Source: Psychrobacillus sp. BL-248-WT-3 (lineage in GTDB: Bacteria > Bacillota > Bacilli > Bacillales_A > Planococcaceae). From it: DNA of 64,000 bases. The translations under genes and the position numbers were made by a program. The notes below the pieces were generated by a model. That model searched no databases and was not told the origin of the DNA. It saw only the letters and a program-made list of their open reading frames with translations. This document shows positions 9,641 to 21,830 of this stretch, piece after piece (within the stretch, counting starts at the first letter, position 1; every line of letters starts with the position of its first letter). The stretch spans positions 124,001-188,000 of the forward strand of contig NZ_JABAFC010000002.1 in NCBI RefSeq assembly GCF_012843435.1. Direction: 5' to 3'.

Positions 9641-9718
9641 GAGAGGCTGGGACATAACTAGTCCATAAATTAAAAGACGCGAAATCAGTAATTTGATTTC
9701 ACGTCTTTATTTTTTTTG
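9641..9718 (+). repeat. GAGGCTGGGACATAAC-type dispersed element with terminator hairpin
   Basis: Begins GAGAGGCTGGGACATAACTA, a sequence found again at 19351. It continues into a hairpin (arms 9673-9687 and 9694-9708, AAAGACGCGAAATCA type) and a T-run, so it probably doubles as the brnQ terminator. Only one end of the longer element seen at 19349 is present. Confidence 0.7.
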
Positions 9719-9764
9719 TCTATGTTAAAGGTTAGGGTTGATTTAGGATGCTTTCTAAATCGGA

Positions 9765-9945
9765 TAGTAGTATTGATTTCTGCGCCAGCCGGACGCTTTT
9801 TCGTGGGGTGAGCGTTAAGCCATCACCCGTCGCTTACGCGCGCGGTTGTGATGTCTTAACTGTCTCACTCATCCCACAGGAGTCGCTGTCTGGCGCTCCA
9901 ATCAATAAATGGAGTAGGGCTGTATTTCAATAAATCCTATTTATA
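9765..9945. repeat. Degenerate GC-rich Bacillales repeat
   Basis: A GC-rich island in AT-rich surroundings, with GCGCCAGCCGGACGCTTTTT at one end and CCCACAGGAGTCGCTGTC near the other. It is a diverged inverse-orientation relative of the copy at 19467-19592 and shares its right end with a fragment at 15450. No credible gene; the only open frame here translates the repeat. Together with the element at 9641 it accounts for most of the 470-base gap; 9946-10102 shows nothing further. Confidence 0.65.
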
Positions 9946-10102
9946 AATTACTCGCATAAATAATACCGGAAAACTGACTCCAACCACACGCTATAATCTA
10001 ATTTTGTTCTAACTAGCCATTTAAATTGTACAGTCAGTATAAAAACGCAATGTCTATCCAAAATAAACCAATAACTTTAACAAAGCTATTTTTTTAAGGT
10101 AA

Positions 10103-15343: not shown

Positions 15344-15764
15344 TTAGTTTGTTAAAGTTATTGGTTGATTTTGACTAACAATTCTTTTTTTATAGTGACT
15401 GTAAACCATAAACCGCTTTATCAATACATTAAATATATTTCTACTTATTGCTCACCCCGAGGAAAGCGTCCGGCTGGTGCGAAAAATCAATTCTACTCTC
15501 TAATCTAAGATTTCCTTACATTATAAATCAACCCTACCCTTTTTATTTAAAAAATGAAGTGAGGTATGCAAGAGCGTTAAGGATTTTAGTAGTAAACTTT
15601 AGACAATTAAAACAAGAGGGAGGGACTAGCTAATCCATAAAACACAATAGTGGGATGTGGTCATTAAGATAGTGACGACCACGCCCTTTTATATGGAGAT
15701 GATATTGAATAAGTCTGCTCAAAGCCTATAGGAAACGAGTTGACTCCTCTAGGGGAGAATGAAC
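15344..15764. repeat. Gene-free stretch with repeat fragments
   Basis: No gene supported. 15450-15490 (GGAAAGCGTCCGGCTGGTGC) is a right-end fragment of the GC-rich repeat family. 15615-15690 carries GGGACTAGCTAATCCATAAA, related to the GGGACATAACTAGTC element, and a hairpin with arms GGGATGTGGTC/GACCACGCCC ending in CCTTTTAT. The rest is AT-rich and unremarkable. Confidence 0.55.
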
Positions 15765-18703: not shown

Positions 18704-19312
18704 ATGATGAAGCATTTATATTTTCAAGGGGAGGATTCTTCGAGACCGACCTTATTGTTATTGCATGGTACAGGTGGTAATGAGCATGACTTAGTTGGAC
18801 TAGGGAAAGAGATAGACAGCTCAGCTAATATTCTGAGTGTGCGAGGGAATGTGTTAGAAAACGGAATGCCTCGGTTTTTTAAACGTCTTGCGGAAGGGGT
18901 TTTTGATCTCGAGGACCTGCAGGCTCGTACAGAGGAATTAAAAAGCTTCCTAGATGAAGCAGCTCAAACCTATAAATTTGATCGTGATCAAGTAGTAGCG
19001 ATTGGTTATTCTAATGGAGCTAACATTGCAGGGAACCTTTTATTTGAATATAAGGATGTCGTAAAAGGTGCGATTCTCCATCATCCGATGGTGCCGAGGC
19101 GTGGAGTAGAGATACCAGTCATGTCAGGTACTCCTGTATTCATTGGGGCAGGAAAGAATGACTTTATGTGCCCGGCAGCTGAATCTGAAGAACTGAAGGA
19201 CTTATTGCAGAATGCAGGCGCTAGTGTGGAGATGCACTGGCATGAATACGGTCATCAGTTAACACAAAGCGAAGTACAAGCTGCAAAGGAATGGTATAAA
19301 GCAAATTTCTAG
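18704..19312 (+). CDS. mhqD: Alpha/beta hydrolase, MhqD-like carboxylesterase
   Basis: 202-residue serine hydrolase of the phospholipase/carboxylesterase family. The oxyanion region LLLLHGTGGNEHDL is at about 17-30, the nucleophile elbow GYSNGAN at about 106, and the late aspartate and histidine lie in GKNDFMCP and EYGHQL. MhqD in B. subtilis belongs to the MhqR regulon induced by methylhydroquinone and catechol; the operator just upstream supports the same assignment. AGAGGAG precedes tandem ATG codons at 18704 and 18707. Physiological substrate is unknown. Confidence 0.9.
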   Translation: MMKHLYFQGEDSSRPTLLLLHGTGGNEHDLVGLGKEIDSSANILSVRGNVLENGMPRFFKRLAEGVFDLEDLQARTEELKSFLDEAAQTYKFDRDQVVAIGYSNGANIAGNLLFEYKDVVKGAILHHPMVPRRGVEIPVMSGTPVFIGAGKNDFMCPAAESEELKDLLQNAGASVEMHWHEYGHQLTQSEVQAAKEWYKANF

Positions 19313-19348
19313 AGGAACTGACCTGTGAACTAACTATTTTATAAAATA

Positions 19349-19671
19349 CAAAGAGGCTGGGACATAACTAGTCTCTCAATAAAAAACGTGAAACCGGAAA
19401 ACTCGATTTCACGTTTTTACTTTATTATTAGGCCGATCCGTTTCCTGTATGAAAAACTTTCTACTTTAGTTGTTTGAAGAGGAAGCGGCGACTCCTGGGG
19501 GAACAGCGCGAGCTGAAAGCCCCGCAGGAGCAAAGCGACGAGGAGATTGAAGCCGTGCCCCCGGAAAGCGTCGCTGTAACGGAAAACAACTACTGATAAT
19601 TCGAATAGATGGCCCCTTGTAAAATTTTTGAGGCTGTTAATTTGGAGTAGAGTTTTGTCCCGGTCTCTTTG
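19349..19671. repeat. Composite repeat with terminal inverted repeats, MITE-like
   Basis: The ends are imperfect inverted repeats of about 22 bases: the left starts CAAAGAGGCTGGGACATAAC and the right, read on the other strand, starts CAAAGAGACCGGGACAAAAC. Inside are a terminator-type hairpin (19382-19416, AAAAACGTGAAA arms) and a nested GC-rich palindromic unit at 19467-19592, bounded by AGTTGTTT and AAAACAACT. No ORF and no evident target-site duplication. The first hairpin probably terminates mhqD transcription. Confidence 0.75.
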
Positions 19672-19697
19672 TTGTGTTTAAGTTTTGACTTTCAATT

Positions 19698-21830
19698 TTA
19701 ATGGAAGTTTTTCGCTTTGTAAGGTCCCTTTCTAAAAGGTAGCCACCAGTTCCATTTACCAAAAAGTTTCATCAAGCTTGGAACTAATAGTAAGCGGATA
19801 ATTGAAGCATCGATAGCCACGGCTATAGCTATTCCGATACCAATTTGCTTGACTGGCATAACCTCTGTGAAGGCAAATGCACCGGTGATAACAATCATAA
19901 TTAATGCTGCAGAGGTAATTATTTTACTAGTGGAGGTTAATCCATCTACAGTTGCTTTCGTATTATTGTGATGTTTCATATACTCCTCTTGAATACGGGA
20001 GATGAGGAATACCTCATAGTCCATACTTAGCCCAAAGACTAAACTGAAAACAATGACTGGAATTATTAAGGCAATGGTCGTTTCCTCTAAACCAAAATGG
20101 CCATACTGAAATATATAAACAAGTATGCCAAACGTGGAGGCTAAACCAATTACATTCATAATAATTGCTTTTAAAGGTATAAGCACGGAACGGAAGGCGA
20201 TGGTTAAAATGATAAAGGTAGAGCCCAATATTATTCCTAGCAATATCCCGACCTTATCAAAAATTTCATCAAATATTTCTTGATTAAACTTAGGTTGACC
20301 ACCTAATAAAATATCTGTGCCAACGTCTTTATCAGCCCATTCTCTTGCCCAATCCTGTGCTTCATCAGATGAGCCATTAAGTCCTAATGTAACTGGAATC
20401 ATTAATTTGTCACCTTGGACAAAGGTATCCAATAGTGGGGTGAGCTGACCTGAAACCTCTGGAATCAACATGCTTTGCTCCCACTGTTCGACGGTAGGTA
20501 TTTCACTAGCCGAAAAGACAGTATCTACTGATTTAACATCAGGATCCTTCAAAAGCTGCTCTTCTAAATTTTTCATAGTGTTTAGGCCATCTGTATTTTC
20601 CCAGCCACCTGGTCGATCAGCCACCACGTAAATCGTAGACTGGTCCCCCATATTAAACTCATCCTCCATCACTTCATAAGCTTGACGGGAATCATAGTCC
20701 TTAGGTAGAGATTCTACTGATGGGATGGTTAATGTCATTTCTTTTACCGGGATTATACCTATCCCGAGTAACACTAAAGCTACAATGATCAAGGTAACAG
20801 GTCGCTTCATTACAAAGGAGGCAAAGTTTCTCCACTTGGTAGAGGCACCAGGCTTCACACGCAAGATAGTCCATTTATTAATACGATCACCTAATACCAT
20901 CAGTAAGGCTGGTAATAGGGTAATGGACCCCAATACTGCCATAGCGACAACAAGCATACCGCCAAGAGCAATATTTTGAAAAATCTCTACTTCTAATACA
21001 AACATTGCTCCAAGCCCAATAAATACACAAAGTGCAGAGAAAATAATAGAGCGACCAGCTGTTTTTATAGAGATTTGGACAGCCTCTAAAACGGACTTTT
21101 CGGCAAGCTCTTCTTTATAACGATTAATTAGTAATAAAGCAAAATCAATACTTAGCGCAAGCCCTAGCATTGGAACTATGTTGAGGACGAAAATAGATAA
21201 ATCCATGGCTTCGCCAAAGAATGTCATGACTCCAAGTGCTGAAACTACTGTGACAATACCCACAGCAATTGGTACCAAAGCGGCAACTACACTTCCAAAT
21301 GCAAGGAGCAGAACGACCAATGCTATTGGAAGACCGATTGCTTCTGCACTAGCCAAGTCTTTTTGGCTTGCCGTGTTAATATCTTTATTGATGGCGGCAG
21401 CCCCAGTTAAAGTGACACCCTTTTCGTTTCCGATAGATTGACGAATGTCATCAACTACCTCTGACATGTTCTCGGTATCCGTGTTAAAGTGCAACATTGC
21501 GTATGATACATTTTCCTTATAGAGAGTAGAATCCTCCAAGGGTGATTGGATATCTTTCACTATTTTTAAGTTTTCAATATCATCTAACGTATCTTGTATT
21601 GTTTGATCGGATGTTTGATCGAATACGATGAAGAGTGTCTCGGCTGGTAAATCAAAGGTTTCAGTTAGCTCATCCATTACTTGCTGGTGTTCTCCGTCCA
21701 TTTTAAAGCCGTCACCCTCCAATAAAGATGGAAGACGTAATGCAAAAAAAGCAAGAGCCACAAACAGGATGATCCAAACTCCCAAAGTGACTTTATAATG
21801 GCGTGTCACCAGGTTAGCTAAAAATTTCAT
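19698..21830 (-). CDS. MMPL-family RND transporter, YdfJ-like
   Basis: 710-residue membrane transporter with two related halves, each an initial helix, a large extracytoplasmic loop, then five helices. LPIALVVLLLAFGSVVAALVPI and the matching second-half block ILTIAFRSVLIPLKAIIMN mark the MMPL helices; ALSIDFALLLINRYKEEL and GLSMDYEVFLISRIQEEY carry the conserved intramembrane aspartates and tyrosine of the proton path. ATG with AAGGAGG. It stands alone with no regulator beside it. Members export lipids or hydrophobic compounds; the substrate here is unknown. Confidence 0.92.
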   Translation of the reverse strand: MKFLANLVTRHYKVTLGVWIILFVALAFFALRLPSLLEGDGFKMDGEHQQVMDELTETFDLPAETLFIVFDQTSDQTIQDTLDDIENLKIVKDIQSPLEDSTLYKENVSYAMLHFNTDTENMSEVVDDIRQSIGNEKGVTLTGAAAINKDINTASQKDLASAEAIGLPIALVVLLLAFGSVVAALVPIAVGIVTVVSALGVMTFFGEAMDLSIFVLNIVPMLGLALSIDFALLLINRYKEELAEKSVLEAVQISIKTAGRSIIFSALCVFIGLGAMFVLEVEIFQNIALGGMLVVAMAVLGSITLLPALLMVLGDRINKWTILRVKPGASTKWRNFASFVMKRPVTLIIVALVLLGIGIIPVKEMTLTIPSVESLPKDYDSRQAYEVMEDEFNMGDQSTIYVVADRPGGWENTDGLNTMKNLEEQLLKDPDVKSVDTVFSASEIPTVEQWEQSMLIPEVSGQLTPLLDTFVQGDKLMIPVTLGLNGSSDEAQDWAREWADKDVGTDILLGGQPKFNQEIFDEIFDKVGILLGIILGSTFIILTIAFRSVLIPLKAIIMNVIGLASTFGILVYIFQYGHFGLEETTIALIIPVIVFSLVFGLSMDYEVFLISRIQEEYMKHHNNTKATVDGLTSTSKIITSAALIMIVITGAFAFTEVMPVKQIGIGIAIAVAIDASIIRLLLVPSLMKLFGKWNWWLPFRKGPYKAKNFH

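Follow-up and report, generated by a model that had tools for sequence, protein, structure and literature searches.

The window, a 64-kb stretch of DNA (C12:124001-188000) from a 3.80-Mb draft genome in 91 contigs, carries a short non-coding segment between two convergent genes, 40 bp past the stop codon of one of them. The closest named relatives of a flanking protein come from Psychrobacillus, with P. insolitus 84% identical in a comparison that may exclude the window genome's own records. The features of the locus and of a related site upstream are given below in window coordinates; TIR denotes terminal inverted repeat and IS the insertion sequence described further on.

9643-9716, plus strand: solo left end of the element family (TIR and hairpin 1), 12 bp past a stop codon and followed by another repeat, recognised by sequence comparison.
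18704-19312, plus strand: upstream gene of 202 aa, putatively a hydrolase from its letters, whose native hairpin has been replaced (ORF and the gap in relatives).
19349-19352, no strand: CAAA, retained foot of the replaced host stem, common to the empty site of the same-species genome G011.
19353-19667, no strand: non-autonomous IS1182-type element of 315 bp, GAG...CTC, bounded by exact IS junctions and the empty site.
19353-19364, plus strand: left TIR, GAGGCTGGGACA, followed by subterminal sequence like the 3' (right) end of the IS (score reached by 1 of 500 shuffles).
19382-19418, no strand: hairpin 1, terminator-like in both directions by folding and by covariation over 15 copies.
19467-19592, no strand: GC-rich imperfect palindrome (TAGTTGTTT...AAACAACTA) from sequence comparison, with a GC-rich block at the matching place in some autonomous IS1182-family elements.
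19611-19636, no strand: decayed hairpin 2, intact in the C12:34k copy, where it folds at -20.8 kcal/mol.
19656-19667, minus strand: right TIR, GAGACCGGGACA, with 2 mismatches to the left TIR and subterminal sequence like the 5' (left) end of the IS (score reached by 5 of 500 shuffles).
19668-19671, no strand: TTTG, retained foot of the replaced host stem, by comparison with G011.
19698-21830, minus strand: convergent gene of 710 aa, a transporter candidate from its letters (ORF and the gap in relatives).

A sequence-only reading of this DNA had described a 323-bp MITE-like composite with imperfect terminal inverted repeats of about 22 bp. The repeats are borne out, as CAAAGAGGCTGGGACATAACTA at 19349 and CAAAGAGACCGGGACAAAACTC read inward from 19671 are identical at 18 of 22 positions, but the bounds were drawn too wide: the true ends are GAG...CTC at 19353-19667, and the outer CAAA and TTTG are host DNA. 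The element contains no ORF of at least 80 aa. The DNA fold of the 323 nt is 3.9 sd lower than that of dinucleotide shuffles, none of 100 of which reached as low a value. The terminator hairpin of that reading is present, with 14 of 15 stem positions paired, while the GC-rich palindrome nested beside it is imperfect and was recognised by eye, the repeat scan reporting no inverted repeat of at least 12 bp in the GC-rich block. No Rfam family reaches its gathering score anywhere in the 64 kb. This copy is worn, with two TIR mismatches, hairpin 2 gone and at most 82% likeness to its nearest long relatives. The element and its surroundings (19280-19760) also hold four promoter-like matches, compared with 0.4 in shuffles.

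The ends are dispersed through the genome. The end motif AGAGGCTGGGACA occurs seven times in the window at up to 2 mismatches, against 0.84 expected, and GAGGCTGGGACA at up to 1 mismatch gives 18+20 hits in the draft genome against 1+1 for the reversed control. The contrast is weaker for GAGRCTGGGACA in G011, a complete genome of the same species (19+20 against 5+8 for the reversed control). Searching with the element as DNA yielded 45 matches in its own genome, many partial and degenerate and few two-ended, and 40 in G011. Further copies with both ends within 500 bp, a search proposed in the sequence-only reading, do exist: at up to 1 mismatch they lie at C12:34324/34653 and C34:58193/58524, a set from which the window copy is absent through the two mismatches of its right end. 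Element matches occur in 18 of 19 genomes of the genus; outside the species they cover approximately the GC-rich block only, with one exception in G002 among the matches listed. Most copies compared between the two strains are common to both, and hence supply no empty site. One mini-element copy is oppositely oriented in the two strains (C58:3700 and G011:578 kb), by inversion between its ends or by independent insertions, and two half-elements about 1 kb apart in C66 correspond to 0.86 and 3.06 Mb in G011, placing a rearrangement break near an element.

The lone end reported at 9641 is a genuine solo end (TIR and hairpin) whose T-tail is interrupted by another repeat. The supposed weaker relative at 15615 does not fall within 2 mismatches of the end motif and is at most a putative relative. 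The inserted repeat belongs to a second family of about 370 bp, with ends CTATGTTAAAGG and CTTTAACAAAGC and a GC-rich palindrome of its own; it spans about 9717-10087, occupies the T-tail between copies of (T)ATTTTTTT, and part of the same family recurs at about 15380-15560. A G011 copy of this repeat is flanked by two AATAGATAA, apparently a 9-bp target duplication, and adjoins the hairpin that the C12:34k element replaced.

A transposase with matching ends, which the sequence-only reading had suggested looking for, is found in the same species. G011 carries four copies of an IS of 1821 bp (~1.82 kb) that differ at 0-3 positions and hold a single 535-aa ORF, an IS1182-family transposase by NF033551 (434 bits) and Pfam PF13751, PF01609 and PF05598. 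The ends of this IS lie at eight contig ends of the window's assembly, four of each sort: the starts of C6, C45, C65, C14, C28 and C33 and the ends of C40 and C44. The idea that the two contig-end types (GAGGCTGGGACA and GAGACTGGGACA) mark two different ISs was rejected, as they are the two ends of one G011 IS. The interior of the IS is missing from the draft assembly (best match 25 bits), as expected for collapsed repeats in an assembly that breaks at 1.82-kb IS copies; the partner is therefore deduced from its ends and from G011. Across the genus the transposase is matched in 8 of 19 genomes, and full-length, stop-free copies occur in G011 only. The TIR GAGRCTGGGACA is also found in Cytobacillus, Mesobacillus, Kurthia and some staphylococcal elements, whereas those of lactobacilli and Paenibacillus, for example, differ. 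Remnants of DUF772 transposases in the draft genome (L009, L010) were considered as the partner and set aside: element ends were not seen around them by eye, and the G011 IS1182 fits better. This DUF772 group is 26-28% like the IS1182 transposase, with two decayed matches in the draft genome and six copies in G011 (459-aa frame); at L009 a GC-rich palindrome stands beside the transposase start, and this flank is repeated elsewhere.

Beyond the shared 12 bp, the left side of the element aligns with the 3' end of the IS and the right side with the 5' end. For the C12:34k copy, none of 500 letter shuffles reached the subterminal alignment score on either side, and for the window copy the counts were 1 and 5 of 500 letter shuffles. 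When the end pairings were swapped, three were at chance (203, 258 and 469 of 500) and one was not (C12-left with IS-left, 9 of 500). A 384-bp element in G011 is laid out alike and, by eye, retains the opening codons of a transposase. In 5 of 16 autonomous IS1182-family elements a GC-rich block separates the left hairpin from the start of the transposase, the blocks being counted by place and composition rather than by homology; a sixth, L285, clears the GC cut through its hairpin only and is not included. The five (L286, L288, L289, L311 and L313) come from Kurthia, staphylococci and Mammaliicoccus and also have a longer leader, and the block is absent from the 11 others. Given this block in the matching place, the central GC-rich palindrome may be more than random nesting, and by its sequence the window element resembles an IS1182-type element with the GC-block layout that has lost its transposase gene. 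On these comparisons it is a MITE-like deletion derivative of an IS1182-family IS and not a family member, since it has no transposase of its own, whereas the partner IS does. It is 315 bp long (below ~500 bp) and non-coding, with TIRs, dispersed copies and a partner with matching ends. The target duplication usual for MITEs is absent at the window site and at C12:34k; it is absent in the IS partner too, and so marks the IS1272 mode of insertion rather than a non-mobile origin.

At the window locus, G011 aligns on both flanks (95% identity on the left, 100% on the right) and has a 17-pair hairpin where the element stands, reading ACAAA[GCCTAG...CTAGGC]TTTGTTGT. Compared with G011 there is no target duplication. 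The intergenic gap was retrieved for 14 of 17 other species (all but G001, G002 and G007). A hairpin of at least 12 pairs, equalled by at most 1 of 100 shuffles, is present in 13 of the 14 in a test that looked anywhere in the gap, so that in some species another hairpin may be counted; the gap of G010 fails it, with 7 pairs (43 of 100 shuffles). GGGACA is found in the gap of none of the 14. The hairpin state is taken as the older one because 13 of 14 sister species have a hairpin in this gap. The immediate flanks of the window copy differ from G011, hence the element may have inserted long ago, and exchange of alleles may account for part of the difference between the strains. Empty sites are thus available both in the same-species genome and in sister species, as the sequence-only reading had hoped, but they reveal a replaced stem-loop in place of the anticipated duplication.

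The same replacement is seen at other sites. The C12:34k copy has clean flanks, reading AAAA[element]TTTT in the draft genome and AAAA[GGGCTTCTCCTACAGAGAGCCC]TTTT, with a 22-bp hairpin, in G011. Both IS sites of the draft genome with two junctions (C40/C33 and C44/C6) replace a hairpin, as do all four IS copies of G011. Over both-junction sites in the two strains, a hairpin was replaced at 6 of 6 IS and 3 of 3 mini-element insertions, the hairpin of one mini-element site being imperfect. At 8 of these 9 sites, 0-1% of nearby segments of equal length have an outer stem as good as that of the removed segment; at the ninth, the mini-element at G011:2266k, the hairpin is imperfect, the flanks have diverged and 22.7% of control segments do as well. 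None of the nine sites has a target duplication.

A count of four replaced hairpins at IS sites of the draft genome was cut to two. At C45 the IS end coincides with the foot of a hairpin in G011, yet contig C40 of the same genome keeps that hairpin; this is no clean replacement, and rearrangement or insertion into the end of a DUF772-type element could explain it. At C14 the IS end likewise meets a G011 hairpin at its foot, with one junction only, the far flank not being found in the draft genome. Two further IS sites, C65 (flank without alignment to the junction) and C28 (without an anchor in G011), were not placed. The G011 hairpin at the C45/C40 site reads GCCACCTC...GAGGTGGC, with the IS1182 end of the draft genome at its left flank (C45). 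In C40:1-320 the end of a DUF772-type element, now decayed, comes before the kept hairpin, giving two IS types at one terminator.

Across 15 copies of hairpin 1, several of them decayed, 92.8% of cells are paired and six pairs have changed on both sides. The covariation score is 0.211 versus 0.101, and the paired cells, the double-sided changes and the score were each reached by 0 of 500 shuffles, which leave relatedness in place; slid structures score far lower. No excess of further pair types is seen (217 of 500 shuffles). Hairpin 1 is accompanied by A- and T-tracts and folds at -14.7 and -17.9 kcal/mol on the two strands, compared with -24.7 kcal/mol for the native hairpin. Hairpin 1 as a source of termination is thus plausible and structurally supported. 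The suggestion that the element supplies terminators stands to this extent, although a terminator scan finds none in the element; on our reading the scan's loop limit of 8 excludes hairpin 1. A wider comparison took in 19 IS1182-family elements, namely the IS of G011 and 18 chosen manually from plasmid listings. In 13 of them a strong hairpin, more stable than every interior window, lies within 95 bp of each TIR. L311, L313 and L316 miss this narrowly, L314 and L320 at one end, and L321, a Butyrivibrio element and the sole one from outside the Bacilli, at both. On this sample, hairpins inside both ends would be a frequent feature of IS1182 elements of Bacilli, where they may compensate for the terminator lost on insertion.

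A different role for these hairpins has to be weighed. They could be kept because the transposase uses their structure (as binding or cruciform sites) or because they block read-through into its gene, host termination being a by-product; we regard this as a serious possibility, though somewhat doubtful. Hairpins flank the transposase gene in autonomous elements too, the targets are themselves stem-loops, so that the enzyme seems to recognise structure (PMC5678879), and the terminator scan was without a find in the window copy. Against this, the A- and T-tracts of hairpin 1 resemble an intrinsic terminator, and its stem has been kept by paired changes over 15 copies, several of which have decayed.

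Other alternatives concern the history of the site and the agent of movement. The element could be old at the window site, with G011 having regained its hairpin by recombination with an empty allele; the 95% and 100% identity of the flanks, the differing immediate flanks and the decay of the element would fit such a course. We judge it improbable, as a hairpin in the gap of 13 of 14 sister species makes the hairpin state the older one either way and the IS copies and the C12:34k copy show the same replacement with clean flanks. It is very unlikely that another transposase family, such as the DUF772 elements, moves the window element. Such elements have left remnants in the draft genome, a GC-rich palindrome lies beside one of their transposase starts and the end of one adjoins the hairpin on C40, but it is the IS1182-type IS whose TIR and subterminal sequences match those of the element in the correct order, and its targets are of the same kind. 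We give almost no credence to an ordinary host terminator region carrying a shared repeat that spreads by recombination rather than transposition: many copies are indeed partial and degenerate, but the precise GAG...CTC junctions, the two-ended copies in different gene contexts and the empty sites speak for transposition.

The insertion mode has precedents in the family. Published accounts of IS1272 and TnSha1, staphylococcal members of the IS1182 family, describe hairpin targets that are often gene terminators, including terminators confirmed by RNA-seq, and deletion of part or all of the stem-loop with no target duplication (PMC4923244, PMC5678879). The window element resembles them in replacing a hairpin target without duplication and differs in that they are autonomous or carry cargo with a transposase, whereas it measures 315 bp and has no transposase. 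An element of S. haemolyticus with the length quoted for IS1272, 1945 bp, has ends of the GGGACA type, and a strong hairpin lies inside each of them. IS1182-derived MITEs of 160 and 169 bp related to ISMac2 are tabulated for Methanosarcina acetivorans (PMC3852290). By table entry rather than by sequence these too are non-autonomous IS1182-family derivatives, but apparently one has 4-bp direct repeats and one does not, and the table passage makes no mention of hairpin targets or terminators (PMC3852290). ISPse1 is also tabulated with a 4-bp repeat (PMC3281130); with direct repeats in these two entries, stem-loop replacement is not family-wide. The passages on pneumococcal SPRITE, BOX and RUP present them as small intergenic repeats, SPRITE being terminator-like, and name no terminator replacement or IS1182 partner (PMC10969869). 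IS1182 is reported as over-represented between convergent genes (PMC9208149), which is in line with terminator targets. Searches of the open-licence PMC literature for the end sequence returned, among the matches listed, unrelated papers only, and among those listed for IS1182-type MITEs in Bacilli, Psychrobacillus repeats and terminators in IS1182 ends there was no description of these. As far as these searches show, a miniature element that uses stem-loop replacement and the hairpins inside both ends of the IS1182 family are new.

Taken together, these results uphold the MITE-like reading in amended form, with a stem-loop replaced and no target duplication; its proposal of a non-autonomous mobile element gains support from the two-ended copies, the empty sites and the IS with matching ends. 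We consider it highly probable that the segment is a transposase-less miniature derivative of an IS1182-type IS that was inserted by stem-loop replacement and probably restores a transcription stop. Going by the alignments, the ends are derived from the IS, a hairpin was replaced without duplication and the hairpin is older; from there we infer mobilisation in trans, the chemistry of cutting, activity of the hairpins as terminators and their retention for the sake of compensation. An IS1182-type ancestor would have lost its transposase gene, the right end of the derivative keeping the IS 5' end with its TIR, subterminal hairpin and GC-rich block, and the left end keeping the hairpin and TIR of the IS 3' end. 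The derivative would then have been moved in trans, presumably by an IS1182-type transposase. Between the convergent genes a hairpin, an intrinsic terminator by its looks, would have been lost and the element placed in its stead, the stem foot (ACAAA / TTTGTTG) staying without target duplication. The stop would probably be restored by the terminator-like hairpins carried inside the element's ends. The identity and insertion mode of the element are well supported, the role of its hairpins less so.

More tentatively, with the balance slightly short of even, we propose that IS1182 elements of Bacilli and their miniatures are terminator-exchanging transposons, which would recognise stem-loops, delete them and install bidirectional terminators in a near-neutral exchange, the miniature persisting as a mobile terminator. 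If this is true, insertion would be nearly neutral for neighbouring operons, and the transposase-less form would rewire 3' ends. Bacterial MITEs are usually recognised by target duplications, and an element that deletes a hairpin would be missed. The filled and empty sites within one species offer a natural series for a poorly understood mode of transposition. The element also suggests why such insertions are tolerated, in that stop signals may arrive with the mobile DNA itself; in that case, turnover of terminators through transposons would be a route for the evolution of bacterial 3' ends.
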